Shown piece by piece: positions 4,831 to 19,021 of a stretch of DNA of 20,049 nt. The position numbers and the translations under genes are program-made. The stretch is from a virus: positions 1 to 20,049 of IMG/VR virus record IMGVR_UViG_3300031696_000089; one strand, given 5' to 3'. Position 1 is the stretch's first letter. Each line of letters begins with the position of its first letter. The notes below the pieces were generated by a model. It was not told the DNA's origin. It made no database searches and worked only from the letters and a program-made list of their open reading frames with translations.

Positions 4831-4859
4831 TTGACATTATTACGTAATTGGTATATATT
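4831..4859 (+). promoter_or_regulatory. Sigma70-type early promoter of DNA polymerase gene 43
   Basis: The -35 is consensus TTGACA (4831-4836), the spacer is 17 bp and the -10 is TATATT (4854-4859). The predicted start falls at about 4866, which is the A of the gene 43 ATG. The spacer holds a perfect palindrome ATTACGTAAT (4839-4848) that could be an operator. Confidence 0.83.
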
Positions 4860-4865
4860 TACATT

Positions 4866-7379
4866 ATGAATAAATTTTATACAAATGTTTTTCGTTATGG
4901 CAATAATATTCTGTATGTTGGTTATGCCAACGGTCACAGAATTAAAGAGTCGGTCAAGTTTAACCCTACTTTATTTCTTAAAACAAATAATCCATCGAAG
5001 TATAAAACTCTCGATGGTATTACGGTAGACTCAGTTGAGCCTGGTACGATGCGTGATTGTAAAGAGTTCATTGAAACTCATAGCGCATCTAATTTTACTG
5101 TCTATGGTAACACCGATTACGTTGCTCAATATATTAACAGTCGGTTTCCCAATACCTGTACCTTTGATCGAGACACGCTTAACGTATCTTCTATCGATAT
5201 TGAAGTACAATCTGATCAAGGTTTCCCACACCCAAAAGATGCTGCGTTTCCTGTTACAGCAATTACTATGAAAAATAATATTGATCACACTTATCATACT
5301 TGGGGTGTGGGTGAATATGATTCATCAAAATGTATTATCAATAATGTCAAAGTTAACTACGTTCAATGTAAAGATGAACATGCATTACTGAATAAATTTA
5401 TCGCGCATTGGCAGATGAACCATCCAGACCTTATCACCGGTTGGAACTCCGACGGGTTTGATATTCCTTATCTTATCAATCGTATTGCTAAGTTGTTTGG
5501 TGATGAAGAACTTAAACGATTGTCGATACATCATATGATGCCAAATGCGAAGACTGATAAGTTTTCTGGTGAAGTTTCGTTTACTATTCCTGGTATGGCT
5601 CATCTTGATTATATGCGTCTGTTCAAAAAGTTTATGTTTATTCCGATGGAATCATATTCACTCAACCATGTGGGTAGTGTTATTCTCGGTGAGAAAAAGA
5701 TTGACTATTCGGAGTTTACATCTCTGAATGAATTGTATACAAAAGATTATCAAAAGTTTATTGACTACAATATCAAAGATGTTGAACTTGTAGAACGGCT
5801 TGATGAAAAGCTCGGTCTTATTTCTCTTTGTATGACTCTGGCTCATAAAGCTAACGTCAACTATGAAGTTGCATTTGGCTCTACAAAAATATGGGACACC
5901 TTCATCTATAATATTTTACAAAAACAAAATATTGTCCTCAGCCCACAGAAACCTGTATTCAATGACAGGCGTATCGAAGGTGCTTATGTCAAAGAACCCA
6001 TCAAAGGTTTACACGAATGGGTTTGTAGTTTCGATTTGAACAGTTTGTACCCCCATATTATTATGCAATGGAACATGAGTCCAGAAACTGTTGTTGATGG
6101 TGTTTACCCAGGAGTGAATGTTGATTCTCTTTTAAGTGAAACAAAGTTTGACATTCCAACCGACACTTGTGTTGCTGCAACAGGTCAACTTTTCTCTACA
6201 AAGAAGAAAGGTATCTTCCCAGCTATCATTGATAAGTTGTATGCCGAGCGTTCTGATATTAAAAAGAATATGCTTGATGCTAAACAAGAACTTGAGAACC
6301 TTAACAAAACCGATAAGCTCAAAAAGTTTGAACTTGAAAAGATTATCAGTCAATGTGATAATCAACAGATGTCAATTAAGATCCTCATGAACTCACTTTA
6401 TGGTGCGCTGAGTAATACATACTTTCGCTACTACGATATTCGTATTGCCGAAGCAATTACCATCTCTGGTCAGTTTGCGGTTCGTTGGGCTGCGAATAAT
6501 GTAAACGAATATCTCCAGGATGTTTTAAAAACAAAAAAGGATTACGTTCTCGCCAGTGACACCGACAGCATCTATGTTAGCCTTGGTGATCTTGTTGGCA
6601 AATCTATTCAAGGCGATGATGAAAAGATTTGTGCTTTTGTAGACAAGGTAGCAGAAAAAAAGATTGAGCCGTTACTTGATTCTTGTTATGAAAAACTTAT
6701 GAATGCTGTCGGTGCTCGCGAACAACGTATGGTAATGAAACGTGAAATCATTGCGAGTAAAATGATCATCACTGGTAAGAAACGATATATCGCTAACGTG
6801 CTTAACAGCGAAGGTGTACAATATGCCAAACCTAAGATGAAGATTACTGGTATCGAATCAGTTCGTTCATCTACTCCGCAAGTTTGTCGTACACTGATTG
6901 AAAAAACTTTAGATGTAATTATCAACGGAAGTGAAACCGAAGTTCAGAATTTTATCGCTGAAGCACGATTTGCGTTTAGAAAGCTCAGACCTGAAGAAGT
7001 AGCGTTTCCACGTGGGGTATCAGATATTGAGAAGTATACTGACAAATCTGGACCTAATGGATATACTAAAGGCACTCCAATCCATGTTCGTGCCGCGATT
7101 TTGTATAACCAAACAATCATAAATAATAAACTAGATAAGAAGTATCCGTTGATAAAAAGCAAAGACAAAATCAAGTTTTCTTATTTGAAAGTTCCAAATA
7201 GGATAAAAGAAAACGTGATTGCTTTTCCAGATGTTTTACCTATGGAACTCAACCTTGAAAATTATATTGACTACGATATGCAGTTCAATAAATCATACCT
7301 TGAACCGATGAAACATATCCTTGAAGCTATCGACTGGTCAACAGAAAAAACAAATACAATCGAGGACTTTTTTACATGA
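4866..7379 (+). CDS. 43: Family B replicative DNA polymerase with 3'-5' exonuclease (gp43)
   Basis: The 837-residue product (T4 about 898) copies phage DNA and proofreads it, tethered by gp45. Counting from ATG 4866: Exo I D111-I-E113 (SSIDIEV), Exo II F198-D199 (GWNSDGFDIPYL), Exo III Y301-xxx-D305 (YNIKD), Pol A D390 in SFDLNSLYPHI, Pol B KILMNSLYG (505-513) and Pol C DTDS (565-568). All catalytic acids are present, so both activities should work. A TTG at 4848 is in frame but lies inside the promoter; MNKFYTNVFRYGNNI aligns with the T4 start MKEFYISIETVGNNI, which fixes ATG 4866. No Shine-Dalgarno sequence precedes it, and the promoter places the RNA start at or next to the ATG. The 3' end overlaps the next gene by ATGA. 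Confidence 0.98.
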   Translation: MNKFYTNVFRYGNNILYVGYANGHRIKESVKFNPTLFLKTNNPSKYKTLDGITVDSVEPGTMRDCKEFIETHSASNFTVYGNTDYVAQYINSRFPNTCTFDRDTLNVSSIDIEVQSDQGFPHPKDAAFPVTAITMKNNIDHTYHTWGVGEYDSSKCIINNVKVNYVQCKDEHALLNKFIAHWQMNHPDLITGWNSDGFDIPYLINRIAKLFGDEELKRLSIHHMMPNAKTDKFSGEVSFTIPGMAHLDYMRLFKKFMFIPMESYSLNHVGSVILGEKKIDYSEFTSLNELYTKDYQKFIDYNIKDVELVERLDEKLGLISLCMTLAHKANVNYEVAFGSTKIWDTFIYNILQKQNIVLSPQKPVFNDRRIEGAYVKEPIKGLHEWVCSFDLNSLYPHIIMQWNMSPETVVDGVYPGVNVDSLLSETKFDIPTDTCVAATGQLFSTKKKGIFPAIIDKLYAERSDIKKNMLDAKQELENLNKTDKLKKFELEKIISQCDNQQMSIKILMNSLYGALSNTYFRYYDIRIAEAITISGQFAVRWAANNVNEYLQDVLKTKKDYVLASDTDSIYVSLGDLVGKSIQGDDEKICAFVDKVAEKKIEPLLDSCYEKLMNAVGAREQRMVMKREIIASKMIITGKKRYIANVLNSEGVQYAKPKMKITGIESVRSSTPQVCRTLIEKTLDVIINGSETEVQNFIAEARFAFRKLRPEEVAFPRGVSDIEKYTDKSGPNGYTKGTPIHVRAAILYNQTIINNKLDKKYPLIKSKDKIKFSYLKVPNRIKENVIAFPDVLPMELNLENYIDYDMQFNKSYLEPMKHILEAIDWSTEKTNTIEDFFT

Positions 7380-8838: not shown

Positions 8839-9024
8839 ATGGAATGGCAAACGGTCGTCGGATCCATTGTTGGAATTTTATTGATTTTTTGTATACCTAT
8901 TATGATATTAGTTGTAGCAACAATAATATCTAAAGTATTTTGGTTACAAAAAAATCATAAAGTGATTTTTGGTGTTACAATTTTTGTATTATTATACAGT
9001 GTTTTAATTTTAATTATGAGGTGA
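8839..9024 (+). CDS. Small membrane protein with two transmembrane segments
   Basis: The 61-residue product has two hydrophobic helices (about residues 7-33 and 42-60) joined by a short basic loop, FWLQKNHK. A GAAAGGA ribosome site precedes the ATG. It is the first gene after the promoter at 8784, and its TGA overlaps the GAGGTG ribosome site of uvsX, so the two are translated together. I do not recognise a family. Superinfection exclusion and membrane anchoring are possibilities only. Confidence 0.7.
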   Translation: MEWQTVVGSIVGILLIFCIPIMILVVATIISKVFWLQKNHKVIFGVTIFVLLYSVLILIMR

Positions 9025-9026
9025 AT

Positions 9027-10121
9027 ATGGTTTCCGTACTCGAAAAATTAACGAAAAACTCTACCATCAAGCTAACATCTATTATTACCGAATCTAAAGT
9101 TTTTGGTAAGAAAGAAATGGCTCCGACCCCTGTCCCAATGATTAATGTGGCATTGTCAGGTCATATTGATGGTGGTCTAGTTCCTGGTATGCTCATGCTT
9201 GCAGGTCCGTCAAAACACTTTAAGTCAGCGTTTGCTCTGCTCATGGCAGCTGCATATCAAAAGAAATATGATGATGCTGTCATCTTATTCTATGATTCTG
9301 AATTTGGTACTCCTCAAGCATACTTTGAATCGTTTGGTATCGATATGGATCGCGTTGTCCATACTCCTATTACTGACATTGAAGAACTCAAATTTGATAT
9401 TACAAACCAACTTAGAAATATTGAGAAAGGTGATCGTGTTTGTATCGTTATTGATTCAGTTGGTAACCTTGCTTCCAAGAAAGAAGTTGAAGATGCTCTG
9501 AATGAAAAATCAGTTGCTGATATGACTCGTGCAAAGCAGATGAAATCTTTGTTTCGTATCATTACTCCTCATCTCAATCTTAAAGATATTCCTCTCGTTG
9601 CAGTTAATCATACTTACAAAGAAATTGGATTGTTTCCGAAAGATATCGTATCTGGTGGTACTGGTGCTTATTATAGTTCTGATGCTATCTGGATTGTTGG
9701 TCGTCAACAAGAGAAAGATGGCAAAGAGATTAAAGGTTACCATTTTGTAATTAACATTGAGAAGTCTCGACATGTTCGTGAGAAGTCTAAGATTCCAATC
9801 ACCGTTACATTTGAAGGCGGTATTAGCAAATGGTCTGGTCTACTCGATGTTGCGGTTGAAGGTGGTTATATTACAAAACCAAAGCTAGGTTGGTATGAAC
9901 CTTTTAATCCAGCAACAGGTGAAGTTCTATCTGATAAACTTCTACGAGCAAAAGATATCATCGATGATAAAGATTTCTGGTTGAAGATGTTTGAAAAAAC
10001 TAATCTGAAAGATTATATTCACAATAGATACAGTATGGATGCTTCAGGTTTGATTATGCGTGATGATAAAGATAAAGTAACAGTAGAAGATAAGGTTGAA
10101 GAGTATGACGATTCAGAATGA
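9027..10121 (+). CDS. uvsX: RecA-like recombinase (UvsX)
   Basis: The 364-residue product (T4 UvsX is somewhat longer, about 390) is the ATP-dependent strand-exchange protein that drives recombination-dependent replication. Walker A GPSKHFKS is at about residues 60-67 and is close to the T4 form GPSKSFKS. FYDSEFG (about 88-94) carries the acidic residue after strand 2, Walker B CIVIDS is at 139-144, and AVNHTYKEIG lies in the loop-2 region. The C terminus is acidic, as in RecA/UvsX. A GTG at 9021 is in frame, but GAGGTG at about 9017-9022 serves as the ribosome site for ATG 9027, so I chose the latter. The gene overlaps the next one by 17 bp. Confidence 0.97.
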   Translation: MVSVLEKLTKNSTIKLTSIITESKVFGKKEMAPTPVPMINVALSGHIDGGLVPGMLMLAGPSKHFKSAFALLMAAAYQKKYDDAVILFYDSEFGTPQAYFESFGIDMDRVVHTPITDIEELKFDITNQLRNIEKGDRVCIVIDSVGNLASKKEVEDALNEKSVADMTRAKQMKSLFRIITPHLNLKDIPLVAVNHTYKEIGLFPKDIVSGGTGAYYSSDAIWIVGRQQEKDGKEIKGYHFVINIEKSRHVREKSKIPITVTFEGGISKWSGLLDVAVEGGYITKPKLGWYEPFNPATGEVLSDKLLRAKDIIDDKDFWLKMFEKTNLKDYIHNRYSMDASGLIMRDDKDKVTVEDKVEEYDDSE

Positions 10122-10428
10122 TTATGAAGTTTTATTTGACGAATATCCCGATGAAAAACTTGCTAGAATTAAGTTGACTTCTGGTCAATGGAATGGTACA
10201 ATATATAATTACCACACTATTAGATTTCTTGAAGAAGAGAATGATGATGCTGTTCTTAAATTTGAATATGATATTATCCATACACCAGAAGATTTAGATG
10301 TTGATAGTCTTACCGAAGAAGATAAGAAAGCGTTTGAAGACTATCTTGGTGATATTTTAGTATCAATAATTGAGGAGACTACATCGGATGAGACTGGAAC
10401 AGACAGTAATAAGCAACCTGATTTATGA
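10105..10428 (+). CDS. Conserved acidic phage protein between uvsX and gp41, unknown function
   Basis: The 107-residue product is strongly acidic. A beta-rich N-terminal half (YEVLFDEYP, then ARIKLTSGQWNGTIYNYHTIRF, and AVLKFEYDII) is followed by a helix (EEDKKAFEDYLGDILVSIIEE) and a disordered tail. I do not recognise it beyond its position. The frame is open from TTG 10096, but ATG 10105 has AAGG at 10092-10095 and is preferred. It overlaps uvsX by 17 bp and gene 41 by 41 bp, so its expression is locked to both. A partner of the recombinase or helicase is a reasonable guess from context only. Confidence 0.76.
   Translation: MTIQNDYEVLFDEYPDEKLARIKLTSGQWNGTIYNYHTIRFLEEENDDAVLKFEYDIIHTPEDLDVDSLTEEDKKAFEDYLGDILVSIIEETTSDETGTDSNKQPDL
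10174..10202 (+). promoter_or_regulatory. Possible internal promoter ahead of gene 41
   Basis: TTGACT (10174-10179), a 17 bp spacer and TACAAT (10197-10202) lie inside the coding sequence of the preceding gene. The form matches the intergenic early promoters in this window. Chance occurrence in AT-rich coding sequence is possible. Confidence 0.35.
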
Positions 10429-11800
10429 TGAAGAATACACGAGGAGAGTTCTACCTTTCTTAAAGCCAGAGTATTTTCAAGATCAAACCGAAAAGGTTTT
10501 GTTTCAAGAGATCGATAAGTTTGTCGAGAAATATAATGGTCTACCAACGAAAGATACTCTTCTTATTGAACTCAATAAAAAGGATGATATTCCAGAAAAT
10601 ACTTTTGCAAGTATCATTGAGTATATGGATGGTCTTACTTTTGAGAAAAAAGATAGTGCGTGGTTGATTGATAGTACAGAAGAATTCTGTAAACAAAAAG
10701 CAATCTATAATGCGATTGTAAACTCTATTGAAATTCTTGACGGTAACTCTCAAAATGTAGATAGAGGTAACATTCCAACTTTATTAACTGAAGCTCTTGG
10801 TGTTTCTTTTGACGATCATATTGGTCATGACTTCATTGAAAATGCTGACGAACGGTTTGAGTTTTATAATAAGAAAGAAGATAAAGTTCCTTTTGATCTT
10901 GAATACTTCAATCTTATAACTGGTGGTGGATTACCTAATAAGACTTTGAATATTATAATGGCTCCAACTGGTGCTGGTAAAAGTTTGTTTATGTGTCACT
11001 TCGCGGCTGCTAATATGCTTGCTGGTAAGAATGTATTGTACATCACTTTAGAAATGGCAGAGGAACGAATTGCTCAACGTATCGATGCGAATCTATTGAA
11101 TATTCCTATTGCTGAACTTGAAGGATTTCCTAAAAAGATATATGATGATAAGATTAATAAACTTCGATTAAAGACTGGTGGTAAACTTATCGTTAAAGAA
11201 TACCCGACTGCGACTGCTGGCTCAGGTCACTTTCGTCATCTTCTAAATGAACTTCATCTTAAAAAGAACTTCCGACCTGATATCATTTATATTGATTATC
11301 TTAATATTTGTTCATCTGCTCGATTGAAGTTTGGTGCAAATGTAAATAGTTATTCATATATCAAAGCGATTGCTGAAGAACTTCGTGGTCTTGCTGTTGA
11401 AAAAAATCTACCGATTGTGAGTGCTACTCAGATCAATCGTAGTGGTTCAACTAATAGTGATCCTGGTCTTGAAGATACATCAGAGTCATTTGGTTTGCCA
11501 GCTACTGTCGACTTTATGTGTACTTTGATTTCAACTGAAGAGATGGAAAATCTTGGTCAAGTTATGGTTAAACAGTTAAAGAATCGTTACAATGATATAA
11601 CAACCAATAAGCGATTCGTGGTGGGAATCGATAGAACGAAAATGAGATTATTTAATACCGAGCAATCTGCCCAAGAAGATATTATGAATGATAAACCTGT
11701 GATGGATAACAGCACATATGGTGAAAGACACAAAGAAGAGGATCAAATGAAATGGATGACAAAGAAAGCAGGAAAGAGAGACTTCAGCAACTTAGTTTAG
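10388..11800 (+). CDS. 41: Replicative DNA helicase, DnaB/RecA superfamily (gp41)
   Basis: The 470-residue product (T4 about 475) is the hexameric 5'-3' helicase of the T4-type replisome and the partner of the primase. The N-terminal helical domain (about residues 1-145) starts MRLEQTVISNLIYDEEYTRR. The motor has Walker A APTGAGKS at 192-199, the catalytic-glutamate strand YITLEMAEERIAQR (about 218-231), Walker B IIYIDYLN with D303, and a sensor strand SATQINRSG. ATG 10388 is preferred to TTG 10370 because GAGGAG at 10372-10377 is its ribosome site. It overlaps the preceding gene by 41 bp and the following small gene by 49 bp. The helicase loader gp59 and primase gp61 are not in the window. 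Confidence 0.97.
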   Translation: MRLEQTVISNLIYDEEYTRRVLPFLKPEYFQDQTEKVLFQEIDKFVEKYNGLPTKDTLLIELNKKDDIPENTFASIIEYMDGLTFEKKDSAWLIDSTEEFCKQKAIYNAIVNSIEILDGNSQNVDRGNIPTLLTEALGVSFDDHIGHDFIENADERFEFYNKKEDKVPFDLEYFNLITGGGLPNKTLNIIMAPTGAGKSLFMCHFAAANMLAGKNVLYITLEMAEERIAQRIDANLLNIPIAELEGFPKKIYDDKINKLRLKTGGKLIVKEYPTATAGSGHFRHLLNELHLKKNFRPDIIYIDYLNICSSARLKFGANVNSYSYIKAIAEELRGLAVEKNLPIVSATQINRSGSTNSDPGLEDTSESFGLPATVDFMCTLISTEEMENLGQVMVKQLKNRYNDITTNKRFVVGIDRTKMRLFNTEQSAQEDIMNDKPVMDNSTYGERHKEEDQMKWMTKKAGKRDFSNLV

Positions 11801-14031: not shown

Positions 14032-14718
14032 ATGAAAACATTTAGCGCATATTTAGAGGAAGCCAATAAAGGTTTTCAATACGAATTGGATCTTCATAAA
14101 ATATTAACAGGTCAAAATATATCTCCTCCAAATTTTAGCCCTGCTGGTGGTGGGCATGGACCAGACGGAATGTTCATGTATCGAGGTAAACCGTACAATT
14201 ATGAAATCAAGTTAGATCAAGCAGCAGATTATGGTCAAGTAGAATTGAGATATAAAGATGGTTCATGGGATTTCGGTGGAAAAAACGAAGAAGCAAAGAT
14301 ACTTTATACTTCACTTGGCGTATTAGATTTTGTTAACAAAAATTGGGGCGCTTCTGGTGCACCAAGAAAAGAAACAATTCCTACTAAAGAATTCACACAA
14401 GAAGATGTAAGCTATGACTATAGCAACTTTAAAGATGCTTTTATGAGTATACCCGCTTCCGCTTTATCATCCCATTATGCTAAAAAGGGAACTTACTATA
14501 TTCAAGTTGGTAAAGCTGGTTTTTATCATTTAGAAAAAGATGTTGCAAAAATAGGAACGCAAAAGTTTGATGCTACTCTTAAATTGAGAATTAGAATTAA
14601 AAGAAGAACATCAAAAAAATTAAACGGATATGGATTCTTAACAGCATTAAAGATTGATAAAAAAGCCAAAACATCTAAACACAATTTAGATAAAAGTTTG
14701 GAGTTTTTAAAAAAATAA
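14032..14718 (+). CDS. Predicted PD-(D/E)XK nuclease-like internal head protein
   Basis: The 228-residue product begins MKTFSAYLEE-A, which closely parallels the T4 internal-protein capsid-targeting sequence MKTYQEFIAE-A: same length, same LxE/IxE cut site before A11. After it come GFQYELDLHKIL (E18), G-P-D (43-45) and Y-E-I-K (57-60), then a glutamine-rich QAADYGQVEL. This order of E, PD and ExK matches the restriction-endonuclease-like core. The C-terminal third is basic. If the reading is right, the protein is packaged in the prohead, trimmed by the prohead protease and could enter the host with the DNA. It is the first gene of a late operon. A DNA-modification or host-DNA-degradation job is an inference. 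The family is not recognised. Confidence 0.66.
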   Translation: MKTFSAYLEEANKGFQYELDLHKILTGQNISPPNFSPAGGGHGPDGMFMYRGKPYNYEIKLDQAADYGQVELRYKDGSWDFGGKNEEAKILYTSLGVLDFVNKNWGASGAPRKETIPTKEFTQEDVSYDYSNFKDAFMSIPASALSSHYAKKGTYYIQVGKAGFYHLEKDVAKIGTQKFDATLKLRIRIKRRTSKKLNGYGFLTALKIDKKAKTSKHNLDKSLEFLKK

Positions 14719-15944
14719 TGCTTAATCTTAAATCATTCATAGTCGAAGAAAAGAATACGCACATGACTCACATTGAGGAGCTTATGTTCCTTGGTGGTGT
14801 TGATGGTACGCGCCAAGCGATTAACTTTCTTCGTGATCTTCGTGATATGCTCAAGGGCAATGCCACTTCTGCTGTTGATATTACAGTTAAGTGGGATGGG
14901 GCTCCAGCTATCTTTGCTGGTGTTGATCCTGCTGATGGAAAGTTTTTTGTGGCAAAAAAAGGTCTCTTCAACAAAGAACCTGCCATGTACAAAACGCCAG
15001 CAGATATTAAGAAAGCATTATCAGGTGAACTAGCTAAGAAGTTTACTATTGCACTTGCTGAGTTCTCCAAGCTCGGTATCAAAAAAGGTGTATATCAAGG
15101 TGATATGATGTTCACAAAGGGCGATGTGAAGATTGAAACTATTGATGGTCAAAAGTATTATACATTCCAGCCCAACACAATTGTCTATGCAGTTCCAGTC
15201 AGTACACCACTTGGTCGCCAGATTGCAAAAGCCAAGATTGGTGTTGTGTGGCATACGACATATACAGGTAGTACAATACAAAATATGTCTGCTGCATTTG
15301 GTAAGGGTATTGCTAGTAAGTTTAAAAAGACTGCTACTATATGGATGGATGATGCTACATATCGTGACATCTCTGGTAAGGCAACATTCAGCAAGGAGGA
15401 ATTATCTCAATTTGACACCATGCTTTCTGATGCTGGTAAGTTGTTTCAAAAGATGAATGGTGATGCTTTCCGTACAATTACTCAAGATGAAGAGTTACGT
15501 CAGAAAGTAATGACGTTTGTAAACACATATGTTCGTGGTAGCAAAGCATTCCCAGACAGTGATAAGATGGCTACTGGTCTTGTATTATACCTTAATGAGT
15601 GGTTTCAGAAAGAGATTGATAAGAAGAAAACTGAGAAAGCAAAAGATGCTTGGAAAGAACGTCGAAATATATTGGTGAATAAGGTTGCAATGAATAAAAG
15701 CCAGTTAGTTGCCATGTTTAGCTTAATGAAGATTCTTGTTGAATTGAAGGGCATGGTTATTAATCAGCTTGACAAAACGCAGGAAGTCGACACTCTTTTG
15801 AAAACAGCAAAGGGGTTCCAAGTTACAAAACAAGAAGGCTTTGTAGCAATTGATAAATTAAAAGGCGGGGCAGTTAAACTTGTTGATCGTCTTGAATTTA
15901 GTAGAGCTAACTTCTCGCCAGACATAATCAAAGGCTGGCAATAA
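14718..15944 (+). CDS. DUF6267-like phage protein with a KxDG nucleotidyltransferase-like motif
   Basis: The 408-residue product resembles a family common in T4-like marine phages (recalled as DUF6267) without settled function. The first ten residues, MLNLKSFIVE, again look like a capsid-targeting sequence ending in I-V-E. Residues 58-61 are K-W-D-G, followed by APAIFAG. This recalls motif I of covalent nucleotidyltransferases (DNA/RNA ligases, KxDG). VYQGDMMF (125-132) could stand for motif III. The EGxVxK motif IV is not evident, so ligase chemistry is uncertain. The C-terminal half (about 230-400) is helical and lysine-rich. It is coupled to the preceding gene by TAATG and belongs to the late operon. 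Confidence 0.7.
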   Translation: MLNLKSFIVEEKNTHMTHIEELMFLGGVDGTRQAINFLRDLRDMLKGNATSAVDITVKWDGAPAIFAGVDPADGKFFVAKKGLFNKEPAMYKTPADIKKALSGELAKKFTIALAEFSKLGIKKGVYQGDMMFTKGDVKIETIDGQKYYTFQPNTIVYAVPVSTPLGRQIAKAKIGVVWHTTYTGSTIQNMSAAFGKGIASKFKKTATIWMDDATYRDISGKATFSKEELSQFDTMLSDAGKLFQKMNGDAFRTITQDEELRQKVMTFVNTYVRGSKAFPDSDKMATGLVLYLNEWFQKEIDKKKTEKAKDAWKERRNILVNKVAMNKSQLVAMFSLMKILVELKGMVINQLDKTQEVDTLLKTAKGFQVTKQEGFVAIDKLKGGAVKLVDRLEFSRANFSPDIIKGWQ

Positions 15945-15947
15945 TAA

Positions 15948-16325
15948 TTGTCAGCAATACGTGGCAGATACACCCCCGCTAATCCTAGTAAGTACAGTGG
16001 TGACATAAACAAAATAACGTACCGCTCAATGTGGGAACGGAGATTTATGTTGTATTGTGACCGTTCTCCTAATATACTATCATGGAGTTCAGAGGAATTA
16101 CATATTCCATATATCTCTCCAAAGGACGATAAGTGGCACAACTATTACCCAGATTTCTTGGTAACTATTAAAGATACTGTCACTAGAACAGTGTTAGTTG
16201 AGATTAAACCGCACTACCAACGGAGTTATAGAGTTAACGAGGCTAAATGGAAATACGCAGAAGACTATTGTAAAATTAACAACTATGAGTTTAAAGTATT
16301 AACAGAGAAGGAGTTGTTCTATTGA
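15948..16325 (+). CDS. 4: Head completion protein, gp4-like nuclease fold
   Basis: The 125-residue product resembles T4 gp4, a small head-completion protein (about 150 residues) that T4 needs to make stable, DNA-filled heads. GRYTPANPSKYSGD and YRSMWERRFMLYCD are family hallmarks, as are SEELHIPYISP and NYYPDFLVTIKD. E30, the P68-D69-F70 segment and E85-I-K87 form a PD-(D/E)XK-type site, as in TnsA-like endonucleases. The start is TTG 15948, three bases after the previous stop; no ATG lies before the conserved region. Residue positions count from this TTG. The expected role is trimming DNA or blocking its loss at the portal during packaging. Confidence 0.87.
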   Translation: MSAIRGRYTPANPSKYSGDINKITYRSMWERRFMLYCDRSPNILSWSSEELHIPYISPKDDKWHNYYPDFLVTIKDTVTRTVLVEIKPHYQRSYRVNEAKWKYAEDYCKINNYEFKVLTEKELFY

Positions 16326-16558: not shown

Positions 16559-19021
16559 ATGAGTAAAACAGTATTCACTTTTGGTCGTATGAATCCACCT
16601 ACGATTGGTCACCAAAAATTAGTTGATAAGGTCAAAGCCGAAGCTAAAAAGCAAGGAGCGATGCCGCATGTCTACCTATCCCATACACAAAATGCTAAAA
16701 AAGATCCTCTCGACTACAATACAAAAATTAGATTTGCTCGAAAAGCATTTGGACCAAGTGTTACTAAATCCGCATCTAAAACCATTATCCAAGTCCTCCA
16801 AGAACTTGAAAAAATGGGACACACAGAAGCCACACTCATCGTTGGATCAGACAGAGTAGGCGAATTCAAAACACTCCTCAATAAATATAACGGCAAAGAT
16901 TTTACTTTTAAAAAGTTAAGTGTAGTTTCTGCTGGGCAACGTGACCCTGATGCAGAGGGTACTGCTGGTATGTCGGCTACAAAGATTAGAGGGTTGGCAC
17001 AAGCGGGTGAGCTTGAAGAATTTGGTAAAGGTTTACCGTCAACCTTTAAAGCTAACGACACAAAAGCAATTTACAACAAGGTAAGAAAAGTCATGGGTAT
17101 CACAGAATCAGTAGAAATTGAAGACGAAGACTTTGAATTTACAGAACAAGAACTCGATGCGTTTATTGAAATGACGGATCTTGAAGGTCTTGACGAACAA
17201 ACAGATATCGACGAAGACTTCGAAACGCTGATTGAACAGATAGAACTTTCTGAACGTGCACCATTGACAGTGCAACAGAGATTAAAAATTGGTCGTCGTA
17301 TGAAACGACTTGCTCCAAAGATGCAGCGCAAAAAAGAAATTCAAAAGAAAAAAATGGCGGATAAACCTCGCCTTGAAAAACGATCTCGTAAAGCTGCTAT
17401 TAAACTTCTTCGTACAAGGTTTGCTGGTAAACAAGGTGCTAACTATGCATCTCTTTCTCCTGGAGCTAAGATTTCTGTTGACCGTATTATTCAAAAGAAA
17501 ATGAGTATGGTAAACACAATTAGTAAACGTATGTTGCCAAAAGTTCGTAAAGCTGAGATGGATCGATTGAAGGCTGCTCGTAGTAGTAAGAAAGTTGTTG
17601 GTACTGCAAACGAAGCATTTGAAGCATATCTTGAGGAAGCATGTTGGGATGGATATAAAAAAGTTGGTATGAAAAAGAAGGGTGAAAAAATAGTACCCGA
17701 CTGTGTACCAGAAGAAGTTATTTTTGAAGATGAGGATAAAGAAACTAACCAGAAGCTACTCTATATGCTCCGTCAAGCATTTACAGATGCTACAGAACGT
17801 CAGTTAGTTATTCGTGCATTGAAGGGCGGCCAGAAATCACTACAGAACCCGAAGCTACGTCCATTCATTCTCAAGTTACTTAATCGCTTGCTTGATGCTA
17901 CTCAATCCGACCCAACGATGTTTGTTAAGATGAAAGACCGTCTTCGTCGTATGGCTCAAGATGATTCTAAAAAAGAAACAGATGAGTCTCTAAAGGTTGT
18001 AGAGAGTTTTAAAACAAAGTCTGCTAAATCTGGGGTGCCTCTTGATATTATATTTGAGTGCTTCCTGCGTGAGGAAGACTCTTCTCGTGGATTTGATCGT
18101 GTAAACTCATTCATTGCTGGCGGTAAAGCGTGGGAGATTGATAAAGACCTTGCTTCAAAGGTAAGAGAAGAAGTTGAGCTTAATGAAACAAAGACACATT
18201 TTGTATATCAAAAAAATGTTGATAAAACAAAAACAATAGTGCATCGTGGTGATGAAAAATCTTCGAGAGAATGGATTAGTAAGAACTCAAAACACTATGA
18301 TCATGAAGGTAAAAACTTCGTGATATACAAAGGTAAGCCTGGAAATGTATCACTACGGGATGTCGTGGAAGTAAAGTCTCCTGTTGCTATTGGTAAGAAA
18401 CCTATCTTCGATCCTAAGAGTACAGAGTTCAGAAACGTATCTAAAAAACAAAAGAAACTTGATCAGACTTCTAATGAAGATGTTGATGCAGCTAAAGATA
18501 AAATTGCTCGTGAAAAAGAAGCTGATAAAGTAAAACATGACAGGATGATAGATCAAGCTCGTACAAGAGAAACACAAGCAAAGAACCGTTCGACCAATGA
18601 ATCATTAGACGATGTTTTTACCGCTTTTTTAGATGAAGAAGGTGGTGCTGGAGAGTTTGGAACATCTAAGTTAAAGAAAAAATATAGTAAAGATACACCC
18701 TACGCAGAAGAAACATATGATGGTAATGAGTTTGAAGAAGCGTATGGGATGATGTGGTTCAATGAAGATGAAGAACTCGACGAAGCAGAATATCAAGGTA
18801 ACAAAGTTACACTTGGTAAACCATCAGCTGGAGATGTCAAAAAGTTCAAAGTTTATGTTAAAAACGAAAAGGGAAATGTAGTTAAAGTTAATTTTGGTGA
18901 CCCCAATTCGACAATCAAAAAACATATACCTGCTCGACGTAAAAGTTTCCGAGCTAGACATAATTGTGATAATCCTGGACCAAGAACGAAAGCACGTTAC
19001 TGGTCTTGTAAAAATTGGTAA
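16559..19021 (+). CDS. 820-residue modular head-associated protein: nucleotidyltransferase domain plus repeated cleavage-site-like modules
   Basis: Residues 1-180 are a HIGH-superfamily nucleotidyltransferase of the NMNAT/cytidylyltransferase type. FTFGRMNPPTIGHQ carries T15-x-G17-H18 and GMSATKIRGLA (137-147) is the ISSTxxR-like motif. After an acidic stretch, residues 236-345 are a basic helical module (RLKIGRRMKRLAPKMQRKKE onward). Then CWDGYKKVGMKKKGEKIVPDC (362-382), GFDRVNSFIAGGKAW (511-525), GAGEFGTSKLKKKYSKDTPY (696-715) and a C-terminal KKFKVYVKNEKGNVVKVNFGD to RARHNCDNPG..RYWSCKNW block follow. I recall such modules scattered through head or prohead proteins of marine T4-like phages. 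AYLEE-A (356-361), FLREE (502-506) and FLDEE (690-694) match the prohead-protease LxE motif. The protein may be cut into several packaged parts. Confidence 0.72.
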   Translation: MSKTVFTFGRMNPPTIGHQKLVDKVKAEAKKQGAMPHVYLSHTQNAKKDPLDYNTKIRFARKAFGPSVTKSASKTIIQVLQELEKMGHTEATLIVGSDRVGEFKTLLNKYNGKDFTFKKLSVVSAGQRDPDAEGTAGMSATKIRGLAQAGELEEFGKGLPSTFKANDTKAIYNKVRKVMGITESVEIEDEDFEFTEQELDAFIEMTDLEGLDEQTDIDEDFETLIEQIELSERAPLTVQQRLKIGRRMKRLAPKMQRKKEIQKKKMADKPRLEKRSRKAAIKLLRTRFAGKQGANYASLSPGAKISVDRIIQKKMSMVNTISKRMLPKVRKAEMDRLKAARSSKKVVGTANEAFEAYLEEACWDGYKKVGMKKKGEKIVPDCVPEEVIFEDEDKETNQKLLYMLRQAFTDATERQLVIRALKGGQKSLQNPKLRPFILKLLNRLLDATQSDPTMFVKMKDRLRRMAQDDSKKETDESLKVVESFKTKSAKSGVPLDIIFECFLREEDSSRGFDRVNSFIAGGKAWEIDKDLASKVREEVELNETKTHFVYQKNVDKTKTIVHRGDEKSSREWISKNSKHYDHEGKNFVIYKGKPGNVSLRDVVEVKSPVAIGKKPIFDPKSTEFRNVSKKQKKLDQTSNEDVDAAKDKIAREKEADKVKHDRMIDQARTRETQAKNRSTNESLDDVFTAFLDEEGGAGEFGTSKLKKKYSKDTPYAEETYDGNEFEEAYGMMWFNEDEELDEAEYQGNKVTLGKPSAGDVKKFKVYVKNEKGNVVKVNFGDPNSTIKKHIPARRKSFRARHNCDNPGPRTKARYWSCKNW

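Follow-up and report, generated by a model that had tools for sequence, protein, structure and literature searches.

A multi-module protein of a T4-like virus as a probable precursor of head-packaged modules, with sites of the prohead-protease type in its linkers

The protein studied here, of 820 amino acids (aa), is encoded in the record IMGVR_UViG_3300031696_000089 of a marine bacterial virus; of this record one strand, 20,049 bases long, was read (called the window in the following). Its open reading frame (ORF) probably constitutes the precursor of several modules of the internal head, i.e., of virion cargo, which would be cut in trans by an S77-family protease at L/I-x-E linkers. One chain unites an enzyme with six or seven small modules, and because a recognition signal of the head protease precedes most of them, the chain is probably packaged in the virus head and cleaved inside it. 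A polyprotein of this kind had been proposed in an earlier note on the same sequence; the proposal holds for the multi-module character of this T4-like phage protein and for the protease-type sites in its linkers, with support at the level of the family, whereas one of the presumed boundaries, FLREE, does not. A literature search (subscription papers and preprints outside its scope) found no description of such a polyprotein.

Our own hidden Markov models (HMMs) place seven modules in the protein: K (residues 5-179), B (236-337), C (362-385), D (399-462), S (482-531), R (641-677), and W (744-820). This agrees with the earlier claim that a HIGH-type nucleotidyltransferase (NTase), here module K, is joined to several unrelated modules. 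In an AlphaFold2 model (36 sequences in the alignment; mean predicted local distance difference test score, pLDDT, 74; predicted template modelling score 0.39), K, B, D, S, and W are confident, an alpha/beta part at 546-606 is moderately so, and a long helix extends over 622-678. The folded modules stand apart with low-confidence linkers between them, in which most of the candidate cut sites are situated. Segments with a pLDDT below 50 include 185-194, 202-233, 343-352, 362-385 (module C, where the alignment is shallow), 604-619, 677-685, and 690-737, the low values in linkers being partly due to lack of data because the alignment is thin in several of them.

By its motifs and fold, module K is predicted to be a Rossmann-like HIGH-type nucleotidyltransferase of the adenylyl/cytidylyl class. 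Its TIGH and SATKIR fit the NTase motifs (T/H)xGH and (I/S)S/A-T-x-(I/M)R, its match to PF01467 (Table 1) lies just under the gathering cut-off, and an NCBIfam scan added solely a weak match of nucleotidyltransferase type. As a sequence search of the PDB with the NTase gave no match at E<=0.01, folds were compared with Foldseek, in which phosphopantetheine and nicotinate-nucleotide (NaMN) adenylyltransferases were matched at E about 1e-4. Concerning module S, the window copy did not pass the gathering score of PF19141 (DUF5824) in the Pfam scan, and PF19141 is matched by three relatives (L002, L008, L020); the module is called DUF5824-like because the link is made by our own HMM only. Module W exhibits 28 invariant columns among 24 sequences, and its fold found no match in the PDB at E<=0.001 (best 0.42).

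The relatives comprise 55 loci matching the whole protein and a further 160 added by scans with modules W and S; a full-length relative (L002, 853 aa) covers residues 1-820 of the query, with 46% identity in the best segment. The junctions were examined for [LIMV]xE starting in the last 15 residues before a module, with composition-preserving shuffles as expectation and a nonredundancy filter (60% over 20 residues) that removes only near copies. Four unrelated modules are preceded by the motif far more often than in shuffles. It was found at 84 of 95 W junctions (35.3 in shuffles, standard deviation [SD] 4.6), at 64 of 74 S junctions (25.3, SD 3.7), at 50 of 57 junctions of the CWDGYK module C (15.5, SD 3.3), and at 36 of 52 P junctions (14.7, SD 3.1). 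The consensus before W is hydrophobic-x-E↓A/S (the arrow marks the proposed cut), with P3 being hydrophobic in 74% of cases, P1 Glu in 73%, and P1' either Ala or Ser in 89%. In a nonredundant set of 72 multi-module proteins, [LI]xE exceeds expectation outside the modules (671 against 446.9, SD 18.1) and falls short of it inside them (59 against 92.9, SD 8.2), such that L/I-x-E stands at domain boundaries both by junction enrichment and by the contrast of linkers and modules. Acidic linkers alone do not explain this signal, because the shuffles preserve composition.

Within the window, the longer motif [FY]xx[FYCH][LI]xE occurs three times in the 820-aa protein (0.04 expected; none of 2000 shuffles reached three) and twice in the 5017 aa of the other proteins, once at the N-terminus of the protein encoded at 14032. 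Bare [LI]xE is modestly raised (14 against 7.9 expected, P=0.019); as other window proteins come near 10 per 820 aa, this count is unconvincing by itself and was dropped as evidence.

Separately encoded modules often carry the same signal at their N-termini. Modules that stand alone with the flanking motif, for which the earlier note had suggested looking, do exist: MLTFTQFIAE↓AEYQGKK (module W, L028), MLKFSDYVREATYQGKK, MKTFKDYLIEKPLT, MKFLDYIAED..., and MITFKKYLEEK... were found, and a second W leader reads MLKFSDYVREA-TYQGKK (L007). A separate module B starts MKTFKDYLIEKP-LTPSQR (L192), and its fused counterparts read EFADYLEELRQP-LTIAQR (L002) and ETLIEQIELSERAP-LTVQQR (window); the linker with LIE226 and LSE232 corresponds to FADYLEELRQP or FGEYLDEVRKP in relatives and to the N-terminal MKTFKDYLIEKP of separate B ORFs. 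Orthologues of the polyprotein may themselves possess an N-terminal leader (MKTFKASLTEATK in L012, MKKFSAFLNEAE in S-SM1). Judged from these sequences, N-terminal leaders and internal linkers are the same element. In T4, ipII and ipIII begin with MKTYQEFIAE↓A (T4 record), the first ten residues of IPIII (the capsid targeting sequence) are enough to direct a protein to the head, and cleavage by gp21 takes place after L/I-x-E (PMC9026906). A strict leader at the first Met is present in 20 of 94 ORFs starting with a module as against 79 of 1253 other ORFs, and many of these 79 (DUF6267, P-loop kinase, and similar proteins) may be cargo as well.

These results bear on the possibility that the protein does not belong to the head at all and is a cytoplasmic fusion of small host-takeover modules, the L-x-E motifs arising incidentally from acidic linkers or module N-caps. 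The mildly raised count of bare [LI]xE would suit such a fusion, and so would the position of the gene near replication genes (uvsX, helicase) and not beside capsid genes. The window contains a T4-like replication block with predicted clamp and clamp loader (792-2415), DNA polymerase (4848-7379), RecA/UvsX-like protein (9021-10121), and replicative helicase (10370-11800), assigned by sequence and by synteny with HTVC008M. Nevertheless, a fusion of this kind leaves unexplained a junction signal that composition-preserving shuffles do not reproduce, the alignment of linkers with the leaders of separate modules, and the virion proteomes (S-SM1, S-CREM2) and S77 association described below, so that we consider it very improbable.

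Across the relatives, modules are reordered, split into their own ORFs, or fused. Module C follows S in L010; W is separately encoded in L007, L020, L028, L029, L041, and as HTVC008M gp131, B in L192, L201, L161, and as Melnitz 17 and C48C1 CDS88, and S in L093 and as C48C1 CDS90. DUF6267 and the NTase/B-like part share one profile, phrog_455, and fusion and fission therefore extend to the DUF6267 neighbour at 14718. In L008 (8687-10945) and L238 (Melnitz 20 and 21), additional small modules strung together by EEVELDEA-type linkers adjoin the NTase polyprotein gene. A P-loop kinase (AAA_33/Zeta-like) is found fused inside the polyprotein after LDE/LTE-G and also as a separate ORF (L020:5887-9141, L021:5884-9816, L057:7291-7953), and P-loop kinases and nucleotidase-like proteins are among the other leader-bearing ORFs. 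In Pelagibacter and Roseobacter phages (L240, L241, L242, L244, L245), W constitutes a lone, very conserved gene of 79-93 aa. At nine further loci (L084, L088, L095, L099, L104, L110, L113, L114, L128) W is joined to other proteins at a junction lacking L-x-E; the two long contigs at these loci, in which neither S77 nor gp23 nor the T4 portal is present, probably belong to another phage lineage.

An S77 protease was found in 11 of 40 relatives (mostly fragmentary), of which ten were also gp23-positive over threshold, that of the eleventh being partial or split, and in five of ten isolate records, namely all four T4-like Kyanoviridae and the Flavobacterium phage immuto. S77-positive isolates possess a site before W (LEE↓A in HTVC008M, LTE↓A in C48C1, LDE↓G in immuto, MME↓S in Melnitz), whereas in the S77-negative phages Kolga, Aegir, CRP-901, HTVC111P, and HTVC106P, which infect Pelagibacter or Roseobacter and stand outside the T4-like group, the protein starts at W residue 2-4 with no leader. 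In this natural control of few and partly related lineages, a leader or junction site accompanies S77 in 4/4 positive and is absent from 5/5 negative isolates (Fisher P=0.008). Among contigs, S77-positive ones with W have L-x-E before it, and two large contigs without S77, gp23, and T4 portal (G005, G011; the portal search was made with a positive control) have W without it; G004 (L075) lacks S77, gp23, and gp20, yet shows LWE↓A before W. As contigs without S77 are often fragments, this association is only supportive. No HK97-type protease (PF04586) was found as an alternative in the S77-negative contigs.

One might also assume that the chain is packaged and injected uncut, as a multidomain protein of the polyvalent type in which the L-x-E linkers would do no more than target the chain or bind it to the core. 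There are polyvalent proteins with 2-15 domains, some of which are packaged unprocessed, e.g., the N4 virion RNA polymerase (PMC5512222), and the FxxFLxE element does resemble a targeting sequence. Yet the leader is missing from phages without S77, the hydrophobic-x-E-A/S pattern (P3-P1-P1') at the W junction fits the specificity of the T4 protease, and in T4 gp21 cleaves off the targeting sequences as well (PMC9026906), which makes an uncut chain unlikely.

Concerning the individual sites of the proposed precursor, the ORF translation contains FEAYLEE↓A at 354-361, FECFLREE at 499-506, and FTAFLDEE at 687-694, just where the earlier note had located them. The first, with the cut at 360/361, is supported as a site, lying directly before module C, at whose junctions [LIMV]xE is enriched; it nearly repeats, as had also been noticed, the FSAYLEEA of the 14032 protein (7 of 8 residues and 18 of 24 bases identical). 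For FLDEE (690-694), FLDE↓E (693/694) is plausible within a disordered stretch, and the relatives are variable there, with FESLFLEEPRV in L004 and L006 and FESLWANI, lacking LxE, in L002 and L003. FLREE (502-506; 18062..18076, + strand) was rejected both as a cut site and as a module boundary: it lies inside module S, aligns with the VYNRGMAAW helix of relatives, and reaches a pLDDT of about 90-95 within a confidently folded DUF5824-like domain. The best-supported candidate site, LDE742↓A, was absent from the earlier list, as were the candidates ITE183↓S, LIE226/LSE232, LNE543↓T, and possibly IFE390↓D. At the place of ITE183, just beyond which the low pLDDT begins (residue 185), many relatives carry LKE, LSE, IKE, LAE, or LHE after the end of the NTase; LNE543↓T lies at a helix edge with moderate pLDDT.

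Virion proteomes of cyanophages include relatives of module K. S-SM1 virions were found to contain a 'putative citidylyltransferase' (T4-GC190; PMC3037559), and the S-SM1 gene labelled GC 190 starts with MKKFSAFLNE↓AERSF; the cytidylyltransferase ORF154 was detected in virions of S-CREM2, for which the authors could not exclude carry-over (PMC10665884). This presence in the mature virions of two cyanophages speaks against a sacrificial, scaffold-like core protein that would be cut many times, like gp22, gp67, and gp68, and whose fragments would leave the head. T4 core proteins are indeed cut to multiple fragments at L/I-x-E (PMC9026906), and acidic linker peptides are predicted in the 820-aa protein as well. 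Module W, however, is extremely conserved and retained as a lone gene in non-T4 phages, and gp22-like scaffold genes normally lie beside gp21/gp23; a sacrificial role therefore seems quite improbable.

Several observations weigh against a precursor of packaged modules. The S77 protease gene is not in the 20-kb window, and the window copy has no N-terminal targeting sequence (it starts MSKTVFTFGRMN), its leaders being internal only. The proteins detected in cyanophage virions are relatives of the NTase domain and not of the whole chain. D junctions are not significantly enriched in [LIMV]xE (4/9 against 2.7 in shuffles, SD 1.3), IFE390↓D being a weak candidate accordingly, the S junction of the window copy offers VVE only, and some W junctions lack LxE. 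The internal FxxFLxE fails as a universal signal: many multi-module relatives have no more than LxE in their linkers, and therefore the general feature is L-x-E before modules. Conservation of the junctions could partly stem from shared ancestry, and of the proteins in the isolate comparison those of Kolga and Aegir are identical.

Despite similarities to known systems, of which T4 internal proteins and Alt come nearest in the proposed mode of action and polyvalent proteins in architecture, there are differences from each of them. T4 IPI-IPIII likewise combine a short leader ending in (I/L)-x-E↓A with small, mostly basic cargo, and an S77-family protease occurs in relatives, but in T4 each gene carries one cargo and one leader, whereas here several modules share a chain with internal sites; failing the N-terminal leader, the 820-aa protein was not classified as a T4 internal protein. 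T4 Alt, a head-packaged and injected enzyme with L/I-x-E sites, is cut by gp21 at both ends (ITE-6, LTE-619; PMC5694885); it is one enzyme with trimmed propeptides and not a chain of separate modules. Like the protein studied here, polyvalent proteins (Iyer et al. 2017, PMC5512222), for which packaging and injection are predicted, are mobile-element polypeptides composed of several unrelated, shuffled domains. Release is ascribed there to embedded peptidase domains (frequent, not universal), whereas here it would occur in trans by the head protease; no peptidase family is among the Pfam or PHROGs matches of the 820-aa protein. The S80/gp245-type proteases of phiKZ and SPN3US cut head and ejection proteins after x-x-E, with several sites per propeptide, although nearly all known cuts remove N-terminal propeptides and the motif is A-x-E, not L/I-x-E (PMC10052503). 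The virion cytidylyltransferases (T4-GC190 of S-SM1, S-CREM2 ORF154) have a related NTase domain and, in S-SM1, a leader, but they are shorter (387 aa in S-SM1) and lack modules B, D, S, and W.

We infer packaging, cuts, and delivery to the host to proceed as follows. Modules encoded elsewhere as separate internal proteins, each with its own targeting sequence ending in (L/I)-x-E, would here be held on one chain, which would be drawn into the prohead core. The S77-family prohead protease, homologous to T4 gp21 and presumably encoded outside the window, would cleave the flexible linkers behind L/I-x-E, best at LDE742↓A and also at LEE360↓A, LSE232↓R, ITE183↓S, LNE543↓T, and LDE693↓E. The nucleotidyltransferase (20 kDa) would be released along with several small modules, most of them basic; with cuts at all seven sites, the predicted fragments are of 20.1 kDa (isoelectric point, pI, 9.9), 5.8, 14.7 (pI 11.5), 3.4, 17.7, 17.3, 5.7, and 8.9 kDa (pI 10.3). 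Acidic linker peptides (49 residues, about pI 4.1) would be lost or kept as small peptides, a charge pattern that would suit cargo that associates with DNA and is separated by acidic spacers. Together with the DNA, the mature modules would then pass into the host.

Two upstream neighbours (Table 1) might contribute further cargo. The 14032-14718 protein, with a PD-(D/E)xK-nuclease-like run (GPDGMFMYRGKPYNYEIKLD) and a match to phrog_26930, is possibly a packaged nuclease. The DUF6267 protein at 14718-15944 is another candidate cargo enzyme because many of its relatives carry a strict leader; its KWDGAPA motif resembles the KxDG motif of ligases and related nucleotidyltransferases. A TnsA-like/gp4-like head-closure protein (15948-16325) adjoins these genes.

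Table 1. Modules, candidate cut sites, and leader-bearing neighbours in the window (arrow: proposed cut)
Feature	Position	Strand	Basis
Neighbour with targeting-type N-terminus MKTFSAYLEE↓A	14032..14718	+	relative Melnitz 15 starts MQGFKTFLSEA
DUF6267 neighbour, N-terminus MLNLKSFIVEE	14718..15944	+	DUF6267 relatives with strict targeting-type N-termini
Whole ORF, predicted to encode the polyprotein precursor of modules packaged in the head	16559..19021	+	ATG start, intact, 820 aa
Module K, HIGH-type nucleotidyltransferase fold, residues 1-180	16559..17098	+	phrog_3041 E=9.5e-57; PF01467 E=7.8e-4
Candidate cut site ITE183↓S after NTase	17099..17107	+	LxE-type residues there in many relatives
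Acidic disordered linker, residues 184-235	17108..17263	+	low pLDDT; predicted 49-aa peptide 184-232, pI 4.1
Candidate cut sites LIE226, LSE232↓R before module B	17228..17254	+	equivalents in relatives
Module B, basic helical, residues 236-342	17264..17584	+	phrog_455 C-terminal part; own HMM
FEAYLEE↓A, candidate cut site LEE360↓A before module C	17618..17641	+	C-junction enrichment; low pLDDT
Module C, CWDGYKxVGMKKKGxxxVPxCVPE, residues 362-387	17642..17719	+	phrog_727, phrog_4359, own HMM
Weak candidate cut site IFE390↓D before module D	17720..17728	+	LYE/ITE at same junction in L002-L006
Module D, helical, residues 394-467	17738..17959	+	own HMM; AlphaFold2 helices
Module S, divergent DUF5824-like domain, residues 475-545	17981..18193	+	own HMM E=1.1e-15
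Candidate cut site LNE543↓T (EEVELNE linker) after module S	18179..18187	+	EEVELxE linkers in L008, Melnitz
Small alpha/beta module, residues 546-606	18194..18376	+	AlphaFold2, moderate confidence
Module R, long helix, residues 622-678	18422..18592	+	own HMM 641-677; AlphaFold2 helix
FTAFLDE↓E, candidate cut site LDE693	18617..18640	+	690-737 disordered
Module G, GTxKLxKKYxxDTP motif in acidic disordered segment	18641..18736	+	motif recurs in relatives
Best candidate cut site LDE742↓A directly before module W	18776..18784	+	W-junction enrichment
Module W, YQGxxVxLxxP...ARYWSCxxW, residues 744-820	18788..19018	+	phrog_7595

The known roles of head proteases in tailed phages are the trimming of propeptides and the clearance of the scaffold. 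If the precursor reading is true, the same protease would also divide a chain of injected cargo into portions in a group of marine phages that is very abundant, the hosts of the relatives being Pelagibacter, Methylophilales, and picocyanobacteria. A large class of 'hypothetical' multi-module genes would thereby be explained, L-x-E junctions would constitute a sequence rule by which packaged small proteins could be predicted, and candidates for injected factors that act early could be listed at once.

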